Assembly (NCBI GenBank): GCA_030603605.1
Contig: JAUVXN010000049.1
Coordinates: forward strand, 1-8,630
DNA: 8,630 bases
Direction: 5' to 3'
Source: Dehalococcoidales bacterium
GTDB taxonomy: Bacteria > Chloroflexota > Dehalococcoidia > Dehalococcoidales > RBG-16-60-22
Shown here: positions 1 through 7,044 of the stretch, piece by piece
How the letters are laid out: every line of letters starts with the position of its first letter
Numbering within the stretch: the first letter of the stretch is position 1
Program-made: the position numbers and the translations under genes
The notes under the pieces: generated by a model
The model's input: the letters and a program-made list of their open reading frames with translations, nothing else
The model's database searches: none
What the model was told of the DNA's origin: nothing

Positions 1-452
1 GCCACCGCCCGGGAAAGCACCAGCTCAAACTTCTCCCGATATTGAGCCTTGTGGGCAACATCCTCAGCCCGACCAACCACGATTTCAACATTGTCCAGCT
101 CCAGTTTTTGTTTGATGTGATGTAAAAAGGCAGCTTTTTTAGCGGTGGCGTCAAGCAGCACCAGCTTAATACCAGACAGTAGAATTTTAAGCGGTATTCC
201 AGGTATGCCCGCCCCGGTGCCGACATCAATGAGACGGAAGTTAGCCTTACCAATCGGTTGCTTTAAAGCCAGAAGCACGGTAAGCGAATCAAGGAAGTGC
301 TTTATCTGCACCTCTTCATAGTCGGTGATAGCGGTAAGGTTCATTCGCCGGTTCCAGTCCATCAACTCCCGGTAATAGATATGGAACTGCTCAAGCTGGT
401 GAGGGGTAAGATGTACGCCTAATTTTTTGGCTCCGGATTCAAGTTTTTCCAT
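1..452 (-). CDS. rsmG: 16S rRNA (guanine-N7) methyltransferase RsmG, 5' part (C-terminus off the left edge)
   Basis: RsmG (GidB) transfers a methyl group from S-adenosylmethionine to N7 of a guanine in the 530 loop of 16S rRNA. About 150 N-terminal residues are visible; the family is usually around 210-240, so the catalytic domain is cut. The N-terminal helical part ends with the conserved stretch NRRMNLTAI at about residues 34-42. The SAM-binding motif LIDVGTGAGIPGIPL follows at 74-88, then LLDATAKKAAFL at 99-110, whose acidic D101 ends strand 2. The last visible residues, LVLSRAV, match the family's conserved RAV motif. The ATG at 452 is chosen because it gives the usual N-terminal length; an in-frame GTG at 461 is possible, and neither has a clear Shine-Dalgarno. 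The gene follows cdsA in the same direction but is separated by a repeat and has its own promoter, so it is probably a separate unit. Confidence 0.93.
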   Translation of the reverse strand, partial: MEKLESGAKKLGVHLTPHQLEQFHIYYRELMDWNRRMNLTAITDYEEVQIKHFLDSLTVLLALKQPIGKANFRLIDVGTGAGIPGIPLKILLSGIKLVLLDATAKKAAFLHHIKQKLELDNVEIVVGRAEDVAHKAQYREKFELVLSRAV

Positions 453-479
453 GATAGCCACTGCCCAGACTTTGCTTCA

Positions 480-488
480 ATTATATCA
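480..488 (-). promoter_or_regulatory. Extended -10 promoter for rsmG
   Basis: Read on the minus strand, 488-480 gives TGA followed by a perfect TATAAT (485-480), an extended -10 element. No good -35 is visible 16-18 bases upstream, which extended -10 promoters tolerate. The predicted transcription start is near 473, leaving about 20 bases of leader before the rsmG ATG at 452. The call rests on the motif alone. Confidence 0.6.
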
Positions 489-518
489 CCGTTGCTGCCA
501 AATAGAGTAATAATTGTG

Positions 519-660
519 TCTAATAACCCCATCCCTCGAAGAGTCTTCGACCTGTATCCCCTTCCCCTTGTTAAGAAGAGGCTCTGCCCTGAAGGGCAAA
601 AGCCCAGAGGGGGGATAAACCCTGTTAGGAACTCTAACGGGGTAACGGGGGTGAGGTAGA
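519..660. repeat. Palindrome-rich intergenic repeat between cdsA and rsmG
   Basis: This non-coding stretch is a chain of small palindromes: CGAAG/CTTCG at 537-549, GCCC/GGGC near 586-597, and a 10-bp stem at 619-643. It ends with GGGGGTGAGGT at 647-657, which recurs exactly at 5108-5118 at the end of a similar block. The internal run with TTAAGAAGAGG (about 570-582) also resembles TTAATAAGGAGAGG at 5086-5099. Both copies lie in the same orientation between genes. This suggests a diverged family of short, non-autonomous, hairpin-forming intergenic elements. An 82-codon open frame crosses it but looks like low-complexity repeat translation. Confidence 0.5.
619..643 (-). terminator. Possible weak terminator hairpin downstream of cdsA
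   Basis: Bases 619-628 pair with 634-643 over 10 bp (one G-T pair) around a 5-base loop. On the minus strand this lies about 50 bases past the cdsA stop and is followed by only three T residues and then ATCC. It could slow or stop transcription leaving the rpsB-cdsA operon, but the T-tract is poor and the stem is equally explained as part of the surrounding repeat. Confidence 0.3.
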
Positions 661-690
661 CAGACAATCTCCTAGCAAGCTACAGCCAAT

Positions 691-1503
691 TCAGCCAACC
701 ATTAGCGCTGGATAAACAAAGGTGTAGTATAAGTAGACGACTATGCCGGCAAAGACTATGCTGTCTGTCCGGTCAAGGATACCGCCATGCCCCGGCATGA
801 GCTTGCCGGACTCTTTTACTCCCGTATTGCGTTTAAGCAAGGACTCTATCAGGTCGCCGCATTGACCGAAAACGCTGACCAGGAAGCCGAGGAGTATTGC
901 CTGCCACAAGCTAATATGAAGAATAAGAGGCGTGGGTAGAATAAAGAACAGGCTAACGATGATAGCCCCAAAGACTCCGGCTACAGTTCCTTCCCAGGTT
1001 TTGTCTGGACTGATATGCAGGGCAAGACGATGCCTGCCCAGTGCCCGTCCAACGAAGAAAGCAGTGGTGTCAGAGGCAAAGGTGACAAACAGAACAAAAA
1101 ATACCCAATTTCTCCCCGCATCCAGTCTTAATGCCACCAGATAGCTTAACAGCCACCCCACGTAGAGGATTCCGGCTATTGTCCATGCCCAATCAATAAA
1201 AGCCCCTTCTTTTTGTGGGCGCAGTAGCAACCATATCAAAGATAGCACCATAGCTGAAGTCAATAGAAGCGGGATAATAAAATCATAATCAAAATGAGGA
1301 CTGAGGATGAATAACAGAGTCCAAACCAGCCCGAAATAAGTAAGTGATGGGACTTTTAAGGTCATTCTGTAGAACTCAAAGACAGCCAGCAATCCCCAGA
1401 TAGCCACTAATATGGTGAACCAGGGTAATGGTTTATCAAACCAGACGGCAACGACAACAAGAGGAATGCCCCACAGTGCAGTTATGATCCTTTTCTTGAG
1501 CAT
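691..1503 (-). CDS. cdsA: Phosphatidate cytidylyltransferase (CDP-diglyceride synthase) CdsA
   Basis: CdsA is an integral inner-membrane enzyme that makes CDP-diacylglycerol from phosphatidate and CTP, the branch point for phospholipid synthesis. The 270-residue length is normal. Most of the protein is hydrophobic, with roughly eight membrane segments (for example 10-22, 28-44, 57-69, 76-94, 132-152, 173-190, 198-214, 248-262). Conserved landmarks are SDTTAFFVGR at about 144-153, SPDKTWEG at 165-172, GD at 216-217, and the family signature running from S221 to D247 with KR, PGHGG and LDRTD. One signature position differs: the usual K-D pair is K230-E231. The two Asp positions 27 residues apart (D217, D244), which I believe are the metal ligands, are retained. 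The ATG at 1503 lies 10 bases after the uppS stop, so it is cotranscribed. It is the last gene of the operon; no dxr or rseP follows. Confidence 0.95.
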   Translation of the reverse strand: MLKKRIITALWGIPLVVVAVWFDKPLPWFTILVAIWGLLAVFEFYRMTLKVPSLTYFGLVWTLLFILSPHFDYDFIIPLLLTSAMVLSLIWLLLRPQKEGAFIDWAWTIAGILYVGWLLSYLVALRLDAGRNWVFFVLFVTFASDTTAFFVGRALGRHRLALHISPDKTWEGTVAGVFGAIIVSLFFILPTPLILHISLWQAILLGFLVSVFGQCGDLIESLLKRNTGVKESGKLMPGHGGILDRTDSIVFAGIVVYLYYTFVYPALMVG

Positions 1504-1513
1504 GTGGCTAACA

Positions 1514-2245
1514 TTATAAGGCGCCGAAGCGCCTTTCTCTCTGGCTATAGGCGAGTAGTGCTTTGTCGATATCCTCTTTAGTAAAGTCGGGCCATAAGAC
1601 CTGGGTAAAGTAGTATTCGCTGTAAGCCGTTTGCCATATCAGGAAGTTGCTAAGGCGGAGTTCATCTCCAGTGCGAATTAGTAGGTCAACATCAGGTAAA
1701 CCAGTGGAATAAAGGTAACTACTAAATAATTTTTCATCTATTTTCTGAGGTGGGATACCCTCGGTTATAAGGCGACGCACCGCATCTAGAATCTCAACGC
1801 GCCCCCCATAATTGAAGGCAAGATTAAGAGTCATTCCAGTGTTATTCTTGGTCAACTCTACCCCCCTATTTAGAGCCTGTTGCAGCCATGGCGGGAGTTC
1901 TTCAAGGCGACCAAGGTGGCGAACTCTAACACCTTTTTTATGAAGTTTAGGAACGTCTTTATCTATCCTCTCCCCTAAGATATGGAATAAACCATCAATT
2001 TCATCTCCAGGTCGGCCCCAGTTTTCCGTGGAAAAGCCGTAAAGCGTTACATACTTTATCTGGCAGTCGTTAAGGTATTCAACTATGGCACGCATGTTTT
2101 TTACCCCGGCATGGTGACCCTTAAGCCTGGATAACCCGCGTTGCTCCGCCCATCTACCATTGCCGTCCGGCACAATGGCGACATGGACAGGCAGGCGAAC
2201 AATTTTTTTCATAGCTGTCTCGGTAGTTTTAGTCTTATCAGCCAA
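1514..2245 (-). CDS. uppS: Isoprenyl transferase (undecaprenyl diphosphate synthase) UppS
   Basis: UppS is a soluble cis-prenyltransferase. It extends farnesyl diphosphate with isopentenyl diphosphate to the C55 carrier lipid used for cell-wall or surface glycan assembly. The 243 residues carry the family motifs in order: DGNGRWA (27-33, D27 the expected Mg/diphosphate Asp), GHHAG (43-47), FSTENW plus RP (71-79), RTGDELRLSNFLIWQ (191-205), E210, and WPDF (218-221), ending in RRFG. The start is TTG at 2245: it is preceded by GTAGGAG with about 8 bases of spacing, whereas the in-frame ATG at residue 12 would leave the Shine-Dalgarno far away. The first 15 residues are a Lys/Thr-rich extension. 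It lies 23 bases after the frr stop and 10 bases before cdsA, pairing carrier-lipid with phospholipid synthesis as is common in bacteria. Confidence 0.96.
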   Translation of the reverse strand: MADKTKTTETAMKKIVRLPVHVAIVPDGNGRWAEQRGLSRLKGHHAGVKNMRAIVEYLNDCQIKYVTLYGFSTENWGRPGDEIDGLFHILGERIDKDVPKLHKKGVRVRHLGRLEELPPWLQQALNRGVELTKNNTGMTLNLAFNYGGRVEILDAVRRLITEGIPPQKIDEKLFSSYLYSTGLPDVDLLIRTGDELRLSNFLIWQTAYSEYYFTQVLWPDFTKEDIDKALLAYSQRERRFGAL

Positions 2246-2268
2246 GGTTAAGACTCCTACAATCCAGA

Positions 2269-2826
2269 TTAGACCTCCGTGAGTTCTACTTCTTTATTGC
2301 GCCCAATTTCTTCAATGTCAGCGATAAAGAGGTCAGTAAGTTTTTGCAGCTGATTTAGGGCACGCTTATGCTCATCCTGTGATATCTCTTTATTTTTCTC
2401 TAGATTTTTCAGCTCATTCATGGCTTCATGTCTTAGATTACGCACAGCTATTTTTCTTTCTTCAATTCTTTTTCGCACCACCCTAATTAGCTCCTGCCGC
2501 CGCTCTTCAGAGAGTTGCGGGATACTTATCCGAATTACATTCCCATCACTAGACGGATTCAGCCCGAGGTCAGACTTCAAGATAGCCTTCTCTATATTAC
2601 GTATACTGCTCTTGTCCCAGGGCTGGATAACGAGGAGCCTGGCTTCAGGCGCAGAAATACCAGCAATTTGATTAAGCGGAGTGGGAACACCAATATACTC
2701 CACTTTAATATGTTCTATTAGGGCAGGTGTAGCGTGCCCGGTACGGATGGTAGCTAATTCCTTCTCCAAACCCCCGGTGGAAGTTTGCATCTTTTCTTCA
2801 ATGCCTTGTAAAATGTCTGTGGCCAT
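2269..2826 (-). CDS. frr: Ribosome recycling factor
   Basis: RRF acts with EF-G to split post-termination 70S ribosomes and free the mRNA and tRNA. The 185-residue product has the usual family length and layout: a long helical bundle (domain I, about 1-30 and 105-185) interrupted by the small beta-rich domain II (about 31-104). Recognisable stretches are LATIRTGHATPALI (24-37), IQPWDKSSI (67-75), AILKSDLGLNPSSDGNVIRISIP (81-103), SEERRQELI (105-113) and the charged helix DEHKRALNQLQKLTD. Position 31 is His in RTGHA, where many RRFs have RTGRA; this is a modest variation. The ATG at 2826 is 5 bases past the pyrH stop, with AGGGAAG immediately upstream, so translation may be coupled. It is followed by uppS. 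Confidence 0.97.
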   Translation of the reverse strand: MATDILQGIEEKMQTSTGGLEKELATIRTGHATPALIEHIKVEYIGVPTPLNQIAGISAPEARLLVIQPWDKSSIRNIEKAILKSDLGLNPSSDGNVIRISIPQLSEERRQELIRVVRKRIEERKIAVRNLRHEAMNELKNLEKNKEISQDEHKRALNQLQKLTDLFIADIEEIGRNKEVELTEV

Positions 2827-2831
2827 CTTCC

Positions 2832-4062
<1,231 letters not shown>

Positions 4063-4075
4063 AATTCTGCCTCCT

Positions 4076-4861
4076 TCACTCCTCTTCAGGGGTAAAAATG
4101 AGTGGTTCCATAGTTTCTGTAACCTCGGGTTCTCCCAAGCCTTCTCCTTCTCCCTCCTCTGCTAAAATCTCGGTGGTTCCGGTTTTGCCTTCAATAACCG
4201 CGTCGGCAATTTTACTGCATATCAGTCTAATGGCTCGAATAGCGTCATCATTAGCTGGAATAGGATGGTCTATATCATCAGGATTGCAGTTGCTATCGGC
4301 TATAGCTACAATCGGTATTCCCATACGTCTGGCTTCAGCGAGAGCAATCTTCTCTTTTATTGGGTCAATAATGAAGAGGGCGCCGGGCAGACTGGTCATC
4401 TCTTTGATACCGCCCATCTGCAGATTGAGGCGCGCAATTTCTTCCCCAATCTTCAAGATCTCCTTTTTAGACAGGCGCCCAAACTCTCCTCTGGATTGCT
4501 GGTCTTCCAAACGGACCAGGTGGTCGATACGAGACTGGATAGTAGCGAAGTTGGTTAGCATTCCTCCTATCCAACGTTGAGCAACGTAATACATACCACA
4601 GCGCTGAGCCTCTTCTGCCACTGACTCCTGAGCCTGCTTTTTGGTACCGACAAAGAGGACAGTGCCACCTTCGGCTACCACATCTCGCACAAAATCGCAG
4701 GCCTTGTCTAACATGGCTGCCGTTTGTTCCAGGTCAATTATATGAATACCGTTGCGCTTGGTGAAGATGTAATTCTTCATACGCGGATGCCAGCGGCCGG
4801 TCTGATGACCGAAGTGAGCCCCGGCTTCTAAAAGTTGTTTAATGGTAGTTGTATCTGGCAA
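4076..4861 (-). CDS. rpsB: 30S ribosomal protein S2
   Basis: S2 is a primary-surface protein of the small ribosomal subunit, needed for S1 docking. From the chosen start it is 261 residues. Matches include [15 protein letters not shown] at 6-20, [11 protein letters not shown] (23-33), [12 protein letters not shown] (36-47), [10 protein letters not shown] (70-79), [10 protein letters not shown] (96-105), [10 protein letters not shown] (158-167) and [31 protein letters not shown] near the end. The tail from about 230 is acidic and Glu/Gly-rich. No ATG lies near the expected N-terminus. I choose TTG at 4861 because AAGGGGG lies 7 bases upstream and the protein then begins almost directly with the conserved [12 protein letters not shown] eight codons upstream (4885) would add EGKGGRNL and has no ribosome site. 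First gene of the leftward operon, about 40 bases after its predicted transcription start. Confidence 0.96.
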
Positions 4862-4908
4862 ATTCCTGCCCCCTTTTCCTTCCAAATAATAGCTTTTTAC
4901 TGTTTAAC

Positions 4909-5218: not shown

Positions 5219-5539
5219 AAATAGTGTAAAGGCTGTGAACAAGACTAGTAGGCTTCAAAGCGGGGCTCAGAGAGTCGGGTAGGGTGTGAGCCGACGCCAG
5301 CGCCGAAGTTGAATGGACTTGGGAGCCGCAAACCGAAAGTTGCCAAGCTGGTAAACAAGTAGGATTTGACGCAAGGGAAGCGTTATTAAGCCCCAGGGTA
5401 TCGAGCTAAGTATCTTGTGCTATAGTCTCTGTACCTGATAGAGATAGTCATCTGGCCCCTTTAGGGAGATGACTAAGAAGGGTGGCACCGCGGAAGTAAG
5501 CCTCCCGCCCCTTCAAGGGCGAGAGGCTTTTTTATTTTT
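5219..5539 (+). promoter_or_regulatory. T-box riboswitch specific for tRNA-Trp
   Basis: T-box leaders bind a matching uncharged tRNA and then favour an antiterminator over a terminator. Stem I is visible: GGCT 5231-5234 pairs AGCC 5324-5327, and CAAG 5240-5243 pairs CTTG 5318-5321. The specifier loop holds AGTA (5247-5250) opposite GAATGGA (5311-5317), closed above by GGCTTC 5251-5256 with GAAGTT 5305-5310. The distal part has AGAGAG (5269-5274) and GGTG (5283-5286) in the loop closed by GTCGG/CCGAC. The specifier codon is TGG at 5314-5316, tryptophan. The T-box sequence AGGGTGGCACCGCGG is at 5479-5493; its TGGC would pair with a tRNA acceptor end of GCCA, matching the G discriminator usual for bacterial tRNA-Trp. 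The terminator follows. The downstream gene is a tryptophan synthase beta-like enzyme, which agrees with the specifier. Confidence 0.95.
5499..5539 (+). terminator. Intrinsic terminator of the Trp T-box
   Basis: Bases 5499-5510 pair with 5517-5528 over 11 base pairs with one C-A mismatch, around loop CTTCAA. A T-rich tail follows (TTTTTTT-A-TTTTT). The left arm partly overlaps the region that must pair with the T-box in the antiterminator form, so the two structures exclude each other. It should form when tRNA-Trp is charged. Confidence 0.92.
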
Positions 5540-5589
5540 ATCGTGAGAGGCTTCGGATTTGAAAAATAGAGACTGGGAGGTTAACAAAT

Positions 5590-5640
5590 ATGTCTACTAT
5601 GTCATGGAGGTGGCCCCTCGGGGCCGAGTGGAGAAATTAG
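5590..5640 (+). CDS. Putative tryptophan-sensing leader peptide (16 aa, three Trp codons)
   Basis: A 16-codon ORF reads MSTMSWRWPLGAEWRN and ends with TAG. Trp codons are at positions 6, 8 and 14 (TGG at 5605, 5611, 5629). GGAGGT at 5576-5581 precedes its ATG with 8 bases of spacing, a strong ribosome site. It lies 50 bases past the T-box terminator and its stop is 30 bases before the trpB2 ATG. A hairpin GGCCC-CTCG-GGGCC (5612-5625) lies directly after the W-R-W codons. It overlaps a competing CTCG/CGAG stem (5617-5628). Trp leader peptides in attenuators and the B. subtilis rtpA leader peptide work by ribosome stalling on Trp codons when charged tRNA-Trp is scarce. No T-tract follows the hairpin, so control would be of translation rather than termination. 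The function is inferred; the ORF, codons and ribosome site are seen directly. Confidence 0.7.
   Translation: MSTMSWRWPLGAEWRN
5612..5628 (+). other. Overlapping alternative hairpins inside the Trp leader ORF
   Basis: GGCCC (5612-5616) can pair GGGCC (5621-5625) around CTCG. Alternatively CTCG (5617-5620) can pair CGAG (5625-5628) around GGGC, and the two cannot coexist. In addition CCCTC (5615-5619) is complementary to GAGGG (5662-5666) in the trpB2 ribosome site. A ribosome held at Trp codons 5605-5613 would cover the first arm. This supports, but does not prove, a translational switch. Confidence 0.45.
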
Positions 5641-5670
5641 CCTGTAAACCAAAAATAAAAGGAGGGAAAA

Positions 5671-7044
5671 ATGGAAAGAACAATGTATTTTCTTGACCAA
5701 AAGGACATGCCAACTCACTGGTATAATATCCTGCCCGATTTACCCGAGCCACTGCCACCCTTGCGCCATCCCGGCACCAAGGAACCCCTTCCCAGGGAAG
5801 GACCTTTACCCCCTCCCCTCTTCACTGACGCGGTCAATAAACAGGAGTTCAGCACCGAGCGCTACATTGAAATCCCGGAAGAGGTGCAGGCTGCTTACCA
5901 CACTTATAGACCGACAGTTTTGCATCGGGCGTATCGACTAGAGAAGGCTCTGGACACTCCAGCCAAGATTTTCTACAAATACGAGGGGACAAGCCAGGCG
6001 GGGAGCCACAAGCCTAACACAGCGATAGCTCAAGCTTACTATGCCAAGAAGGAAGGCGCCAAACGCTTGGCTACCGAGACTGGTGCCGGGCAGTGGGGCA
6101 GCGCCCTGGCTATGGGTTGCGCGTTCTTCGGTCTGGAATGCAAGGTCTATATGGTCAGGATAAGCTACAACCAGAAGCCATACCGCCGCATACTTATGGA
6201 GACCTGGGGAGCCAAGTGCGTGCCCAGCCCCAGTGAGGACACCGAGGTCGGGCGCCGTCTTCTGGCTGAGAATCCCGAGCATCCTGGTAGCCTGGGAATC
6301 GCCATCAGCGAAGCATGTGAGGATGCCTTCGGCAACGATGATACCAAGTACTCCATAGGCAGTGTCGTCAACCATGTCCTGCTTCACCAGACAATCATTG
6401 GCGAGGAAACCAGGAAACAAATGGAGATGGCCGATGCTTATCCAGATATTATTGTTGGCTGCGTCGGCGGCGGCTCAAACTTCGCCGGGCAGTTCCTGCC
6501 CTGGGTCAGGGATAAGATTAGCGGAAAGAAACCAGACATGCGCATTATCTGCGTTGAGCCTCAAGCCTGCCCCACCCTGACCAAGGGCCCCTATGCCTGG
6601 GACTTCGGGGATGTAGCCGGACTTGCCCCTATAGTCAGGATGTACACCCTGGGTCATACCTTTGTACCACCACCAGTCCATGCCGGTGGACTACGCTATC
6701 ACGGCATGGCACCCATCATCTGCCACCTCTACAAGCTGGGCTTAATTGAAGCCAGGGCTGAGTACCAGATCCCAGTCTTTGAGGCTGGGGTAAAGTTTGC
6801 CCGCACCGAAGGCATTATTACTGCTCCCGAGCCATGCCATGACCTCAAGGTAGCCATTGACGAAGCCCTCAAATGCAAGGAATCAGGCGAATCAAAAACT
6901 ATCCTGATAGCTCACAGTGGGCACGGGCATTTTGACCTAGCCGCCTATGACGAGTACCTTTCCGGCAGGTTGCAGGATTATGAGTACCCGGTAGAAAAGG
7001 TAAAGGAGGCACTAACTCACTTGCCCGAGGTACCTTCGGCGTAA
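5671..7044 (+). CDS. trpB2: TrpB-like PLP-dependent enzyme (tryptophan synthase beta chain, TrpB2 type)
   Basis: The 457-residue protein belongs to the TrpB2 branch of tryptophan synthase beta subunits, longer than TrpB1 (about 400) through its N-terminal part (about 1-80, Pro-rich at 21-50). Tryptophan synthase beta condenses serine with indole using pyridoxal phosphate. Visible motifs are GSHKPNTA (111-118, K114 the expected PLP Schiff-base Lys), ETGAGQWG (136-143, TrpB2-type W in place of the His of TrpB1), the phosphate-binding GGGSN (266-270), HAGGLRYHG (337-345), APEPCH (385-390) and HSGHGHFDL (415-423). The ATG has GGAGG 5 bases upstream. No trpA or other trp gene is next to it: a terminator follows directly. 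It is preceded by a Trp-specific T-box and a Trp-rich leader ORF, which favours a real role in tryptophan supply, perhaps indole salvage. An alternative activity (for example on serine or phosphoserine) has been discussed for TrpB2 proteins. Confidence 0.93.

Follow-up and report, generated by a model that had tools for sequence, protein, structure and literature searches.

The 16-codon open reading frame (ORF) that lies ahead of trpB2 in the window, the whole 8,630-nucleotide stretch of Dehalococcoidales DNA analysed here, belongs to a family of elements that are probably translated leaders sensing scarce charged tRNA-Trp through a hungry codon. The family is marked by a conserved ORF, a UGG that is invariant among the aligned members, a hairpin placed at that UGG and linkage to trpB2 and two uptake genes; it was absent after the trpE and ileS T-boxes examined. 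An earlier note on the window had described an ORF with three TGG codons, preceded by a strong Shine-Dalgarno (SD) sequence and located between the terminator of a Trp T-box and trpB2. All of this was found as described (Table 1), with an RF00230 match upstream and a TIGR01415 gene downstream. The T-box combines a model score over the gathering score with a UGG specifier and a terminator ending in a T-run. TIGR01415 covers a TrpB-like PLP enzyme, usually named TrpB2. The leader stop lies 30 nt before trpB2, and the linkers between leader and trpB2 are A-rich and G-poor (mean 50% A and 13% G over 41 loci). Divergent from trpB2, a cluster of rpsB, tsf, pyrH, frr, uppS and a cdsA-like gene, recognized by eye, occupies positions 3-4885 on the minus strand of the window.

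Table 1. Features of the T-box, leader and trpB2 region of the window.
Feature	Position	Strand	Remarks
T-box leader (tRNA-Trp)	5226..5515	+	RF00230, 105.3 bits vs gathering score 93
T-box specifier TGG	5314-5316	+	inside GAA-TGG-AC 5311-5318
T-box core GGTGGCACCGCG	5481-5492	+	
Intrinsic terminator of the T-box, GC hairpin and T-run	5500..5539	+	by eye
Leader Shine-Dalgarno GGAGGT	5576..5581	+	8 bases 5' of ATG
Leader ORF, 16 codons, product MSTMSWRWPLGAEWRN	5590..5640	+	ATG 5590, TAG 5640
Trp codon 6 of leader	5605..5607	+	Trp there in 17/43 leaders
Trp codon 8 of leader, control codon at hairpin foot	5611..5613	+	Trp in 40/43 leaders
Third TGG of leader (codon 14)	5629-5631	+	
GC hairpin TGGCCC-CTCG-GGGCCG	5611..5626	+	begins in Trp codon 8
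Linker 5' of trpB2 SD	5641..5659	+	
trpB2 Shine-Dalgarno AGGAGG	5660..5665	+	
trpB2, TrpB-like PLP enzyme	5671..7044	+	TIGR01415 trpB_rel, 635 bits, cut-off 519

Genome contigs were scanned with TrpB2, and the best 80 loci were picked on protein similarity, not on the leader. L002 and L046, with the gene start absent, were dropped, leaving 78 loci, some with short upstream DNA (15 nt in L051, 130 nt in L003). A common plan recurs upstream of trpB2: an SD, an ATG, codons 2-7, TGG at codon 8 and a GC hairpin that begins in this TGG. With the window included, 24 of 79 sequences carry a Trp leader, and 17 of these 24 also have a T-box regex match; 10 of the 27 trpB2 loci with such a match have no Trp leader, the motif being doubtful in L017 and L031. 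Twelve of the 79 follow a trpA motif, none with a leader, the trpA regex having missed L005, where trpA precedes one. A Trp-blind scan of 78 sequences (the window and 77 trpB2 loci) for SD-bearing ORFs of at least 8 codons in the upstream interval returned 18 ORFs, with Trp at codon 8 in 15 and at codon 6 in 7. Among control ORFs of 8-40 codons taken from other parts of these loci, Trp occupied codon 8 in 22 of 1152, in line with the earlier claim that the Trp codons exceed chance. A chance ORF was ruled out by this comparison, and the SD-bearing, frame-conserved family of ORFs with Trp at codon 8 is therefore a real leader.

Forty-three homologous leaders were tabulated, 25 from the trpB2 loci and 18 via a covariance model built on 23 of them, the latter being therefore biased towards Trp 8; one of the 43 (L030) has lost the Trp codon, and six more leaders were seen besides. 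Trp stands at codon 8 in 40/43, at codon 6 in 17/43 and at codon 11 in 6/38, and is rarer elsewhere. Thus, of the three Trp codons first noticed in the window, Trp 8 is kept and Trp 6 partly so, and the Trp at codon 14 is peculiar to the window (1 of the 32 leaders long enough). A T-box core regex match lies within 450 nt upstream of 31 of the 43 leaders, and beyond these L114 and L118 show, by eye, an ACCGTG variant of the core. A covariance search of 84 genomes, 21 of them with E ≤ 1e-4, yielded five more leaders (L187, L189, L190, L191 and L195), all with a T-box, trpB2 and Trp at codon 8. In the leader before the second trpB2 of G019 (L154), Trp is at codon 6 and the hairpin sits on codon 6. 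The TrpB2 proteins of 37 leader loci share 61-94% mutual identity and fall into 13 clusters at 85%; in a TrpB2 tree, drawn with no support values, the leader is scattered across many subclades.

In a wider search, matches with E ≤ 1e-4 were found in 4 of 301 genomes of the phylum, namely three known leaders and one site inside a glyA-like gene. Across 393 genomes of the class, 57 had a match with E ≤ 0.01; the 21 matches with E < 1e-5 comprised 18 before trpB2, one before a TRAP transporter, one before a TrpX-like gene and one at a contig end. Fifteen weaker rows of this search were examined, of which six were true leaders (L124, L125/L137, L126, L127, L132 and L140; the L137 leader ends at the contig end) and nine fell in coding or unrelated sequence (L106, L109, L123, L128, L129, L130, L131, L141 and L142). 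The class of G002 (85 genomes) contributed 12 genomes with E ≤ 1e-3: two intact leaders, three decayed ones and seven matches in unrelated sequence. An Rfam search of the leader gave three matches below E 5, all far under the gathering scores.

Conservation was then resolved between codon and hairpin. Codon 8 is TGG in 39/39 aligned leaders, an alignment from which L030, L066, L076 and L078 had been removed beforehand and part of which was found with a TGG-containing model, so that the fixed TGG is best read beside the Trp-blind scan. Of 42 leaders, 40 have a strong hairpin beginning within the Trp codon (none in L066, a weak one in L062), vs 67 of 435 in-frame TGG codons of trpB2 and 969 of 14313 TGG triplets. 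The helix begins precisely at the T of TGG in 34 of the 41 leaders with a helix. When placed on 36 aligned leaders it pairs 96.8% of the cells, vs 27-59% when slid. In these 36 leaders, the three TGG pairs vary on the 3' side only (13 UG, 3 GU), and the next three pairs include 6 cells changed on both sides and one 5'-side change. The count of both-side cells was matched by 0 of 500 shuffles; the number of further pair types in the helix was no better than shuffled (264/500). Codons 2-7 have a dN/dS of 0.66 (n = 39), or 0.46 in a core set (n = 19), and the other frames 1.09-1.75, the pairs compared not being independent. Given the 3'-only change at the TGG pairs, the compensatory pairs beyond and the frame-specific dN/dS, conservation at the TGG is that of a codon, and in the remainder of the arm that of a helix. 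The family thus has the conserved control codon in a short SD-bearing ORF by which a codon-sensing leader peptide is recognized. The earlier note had suggested checking whether related intervals keep a short ORF with conserved Trp codons in otherwise variable sequence. Many relatives do keep the ORF, with Trp 8 and in part Trp 6; the remainder is not freely variable and follows a recurrent peptide, M-[S/F]-T-M-S-W-x-W-P, with codon 7 highly variable.

The genes behind the T-boxes indicate where the leader is used. Sixteen genomes were searched for T-boxes, 15 with the leader and one (G001) without; of the 31 T-boxes found, 30 were read, with genes named by eye. They precede trpE (11), ileS (5), trpB2 (13) and a TrpX-like importer (1). 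The leader is absent after all 16 T-boxes before trpE or ileS, present after 12 of the 13 before trpB2 (the exception is G282:C33:4201) and also present after the T-box before the TrpX-like importer. A generic T-box feature was thereby ruled out. In G282 the T-box and leader are followed by a TrpX-like substrate-binding protein (249 bits, under the 390 cut-off), a permease and an ORF that by eye resembles an ATPase. In G003 it is T-box, trp genes, trpA, leader and trpB2. In G299 one Trp T-box heads genes reading as trpE through trpA, after which come a leader and a TRAP transporter, then acyl-CoA ligase, a ferredoxin-like ORF, 2-oxoacid:ferredoxin oxidoreductase, a second leader and trpB2. We infer that the genes marked by the leader serve to salvage and import tryptophan, as opposed to making it de novo. 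The unit of T-box, leader and gene proposed for the window needs widening: a selected, Trp-specific ORF does lie between T-box and trpB2 in Dehalococcoidia relatives, and it also occurs without a T-box of its own, inside operons and before transporters. Two-layer control of trpB2 by T-box and leader looks likely.

Presence of the leader varies even among close relatives; the earlier note had said that homologous intervals lacking an ORF with Trp codons would count against the proposal. This was seen in part: among the full-length relatives at 90% TrpB2 identity (L001, L003 and L004), L004 alone has the leader, L001 has neither leader nor T-box motif upstream of trpB2, and L003, with just 130 nt of upstream DNA, has ATG-CTC-TAA in place of the leader. 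The leader is intact, with a single Trp codon, in two deltaproteobacterial loci (L004 and L044) that lack a T-box motif. Seven others (L021, L026, L029, L035, L037, L040 and L144) keep the SD-like box GGAGGTGA or a close variant and have no ORF running from ATG to Trp 8, with a possible in-frame GTG start 13 nt from the SD in L040 and L144. A lenient scan detected the hairpin in six of these seven, the one without being L026. In several of them AGG or TCG stands where the start codon would align. These ORF-less copies could be either relics after transfer or hairpins with a role independent of the ORF.

From this arrangement we infer leader translation, a stall, the sign of its effect and an output, as follows. 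A ribosome would start at the leader SD and reach UGG8, in some leaders meeting UGG6 first. With Trp-tRNA scarce, it would wait at UGG8; a ribosome footprint usually reaches ∼13 nt beyond the A-site codon's first base, and the waiting ribosome would cover the whole 5' arm and hold the hairpin open. With Trp-tRNA plentiful, it would move on and the hairpin would close behind it. The occupied, open state would most likely raise expression of the adjoining downstream gene, trpB2 or sometimes a transporter, and the leader would thereby add a local second layer to the T-box.

Two other readings place the signal elsewhere than in the codon. A TnaC-like arrest by the nascent peptide, sensing free tryptophan, would account for the recurrent peptide and its low dN/dS; however, past the start no residue besides Trp 8 is invariant in the 39 leaders, codon 7 varies widely, and in L055, L067, L134, L137 and L140, whose hairpin arm is altered, codon 9 encodes Arg or Cys. 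Pro 9 therefore seems a consequence of the hairpin, and we regard peptide arrest as very unlikely. Just as unlikely is that the hairpin itself is the functional element, for RNA stability or as a protein site, with the ORF incidental or serving only to load ribosomes. The deltaproteobacterial copies without an intact ORF, which retain the SD-like box and in six cases out of seven a hairpin, speak for this reading, whereas the TGG being fixed on the 5' side only, the frame-specific low dN/dS and the 15 of 18 Trp-blind ORFs with Trp 8 speak against it.

The remaining readings accept a stall and differ from ours in how it would be relayed. In rtpA the leader stop is positioned for a terminating ribosome to cover the SD of the gene, and the earlier note had likened the leader of the window to the rtpA leader. 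On this model, a ribosome finishing the leader would cover the trpB2 SD, and a stall at the Trp codons upstream would free it. The order of T-box, Trp leader and gene is the same and the stop in the window is 30 nt from trpB2, but the adjoining stop turned out not to be conserved. The distance from leader stop to gene ranges from -29 to 100 nt with a median of 45.5 (n = 40; L135, at 250 nt, and L030 excluded, and with gene starts set as much as 15 nt too late in about six loci), and L048, L119 and L189 stop right after Trp-Pro, which makes occlusion of this kind improbable. A classical attenuator or an erm-type switch, in which alternative hairpins hide the trpB2 SD, has in its favour a hairpin at the control codon that resembles the 1:2 hairpin of trpL. 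In erm translational attenuation, a stall a few codons into the leader melts a hairpin; here, unlike in erm, a hungry codon would provide the signal, and the SD is not masked by a second hairpin. With the region under a ribosome at codon 8 masked, the mean unpaired value of the trpB2 SD went from 0.504 to 0.497 (n = 41), and no SD sequestration was found by this masking test in the 41 loci. The freed 3' arm pairs no better than with shuffled sequence, either downstream (mean z -0.02) or upstream (-0.28; n = 40). Antiterminator/terminator alternative hairpins, the mark of a classical Trp attenuator, were not found after the leader, and the inspected linkers that join leader and trpB2 showed no intrinsic terminator by eye. 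We therefore give such a switch little credence.

With neither an effect on the SD nor a partner for the 3' arm, the usual routes from stall to signal are missing, and the null masking, pairing and stop-distance tests indicate that conservation does not extend to SD masking, to alternative hairpins or to occlusion by a terminating ribosome. Since neither sequestration of the downstream SD nor an alternative pairing partner was found, our first guess is that a stall at the hungry codon would act on the stability of the mRNA or its processing at the hairpin, or through Rho, rather than by SD unmasking. Among 14 leader genomes, 13 have a match to Rho (12 over the cut-off), 13 to RNase Y (11 over) and 12 to TIGR00649 (all over), presumably the RNase J family; decay and Rho routes are thus both possible. 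We tentatively suggest that the family may be a new type of codon-sensing switch, built of one hairpin with no alternative structure. A hungry ribosome would hold this hairpin open and thereby stabilize or protect the mRNA of the next gene. The module would be portable and gene-specific; located after T-boxes or within operons, it would serve genes of tryptophan salvage and uptake (trpB2 and the TRAP and TrpX-like transporters) and not trpE.

To our knowledge, the sole tandem transcription and translation sensing of tRNA-Trp controls a Bacillus regulator. The present family, in another phylum, seems to put a second tRNA-Trp sensor on the salvage and uptake genes themselves. Its geometry, in which the control codon makes up the first three pairs of the hairpin, lacks those switching parts that were tested, and it raises the question of how a leader-ribosome stall could regulate without SD masking or termination, in an element that is small and easily tested.

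In published accounts, the B. subtilis rtpA (anti-TRAP) leader is a T-box followed by a leader peptide (PMC11255114, PMC4027176). A Trp-codon leader ORF between a Trp T-box and a gene is shared with rtpA control. Unlike there, the target is trpB2 or an uptake gene and not anti-TRAP, the Trp codon lies in a conserved hairpin, the stop-to-SD geometry is not fixed and the leader also occurs away from T-boxes. Two further reports describe actinobacterial Trp attenuators, including a predicted one before trpB2A of C. diphtheriae (PMC1262725), and E. coli trpL, a short ORF with Trp codons at a hairpin (PMC8346122). The present leader resembles both in being a short ORF with Trp codons at a hairpin; it differs from them in that no terminator/antiterminator and no alternative downstream pairing were found. 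T-boxes before trpB-like and trpE genes of Dehalococcoides were reported in 2008 (PMC2494555), the former in common with the present loci; the term "leader peptide" has 0 occurrences in the main text of that paper. No report of a Trp-codon hairpin leader was among the matches listed for the CC-licensed PMC literature.

Several further arrangements were seen around these genes. In G299 (L183, 17.9 kb) the trp operon is extended by the TRAP transporter, acyl-CoA ligase, 2-oxoacid:ferredoxin oxidoreductase and trpB2, and, judging by these gene families, the extended operon might serve the salvage of an indole acid into tryptophan. In L139 (G104) a second SD and a small hairpin (AGGAGGTCAAAATAACCCCATCGGGG) without an ORF were noticed by eye between T-box and leader, perhaps a decayed older leader copy. 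At the leader position of L014, L041, L064, L065, L003 and L057, a strong SD precedes an ATG or GTG whose reading frame closes within three codons, the mini-ORF being ATG-TAG in L014 and L064; it is GTG-TAG in L072. Such start-stop mini-ORFs were rejected as a second leader class: 7 lie before trpB2 (the one in L045 overlaps a real leader), a count with no matching trpB2 denominator, and 18 of 233 SD-plus-start sites elsewhere have them. Eight leaderless deltaproteobacterial trpB2 loci (L013, L018, L019, L022, L024, L025, L027 and L033) share another hairpin within ∼100 nt before the gene, which reads by eye roughly GTCCGT...CGGAC and is followed by GAA in several.
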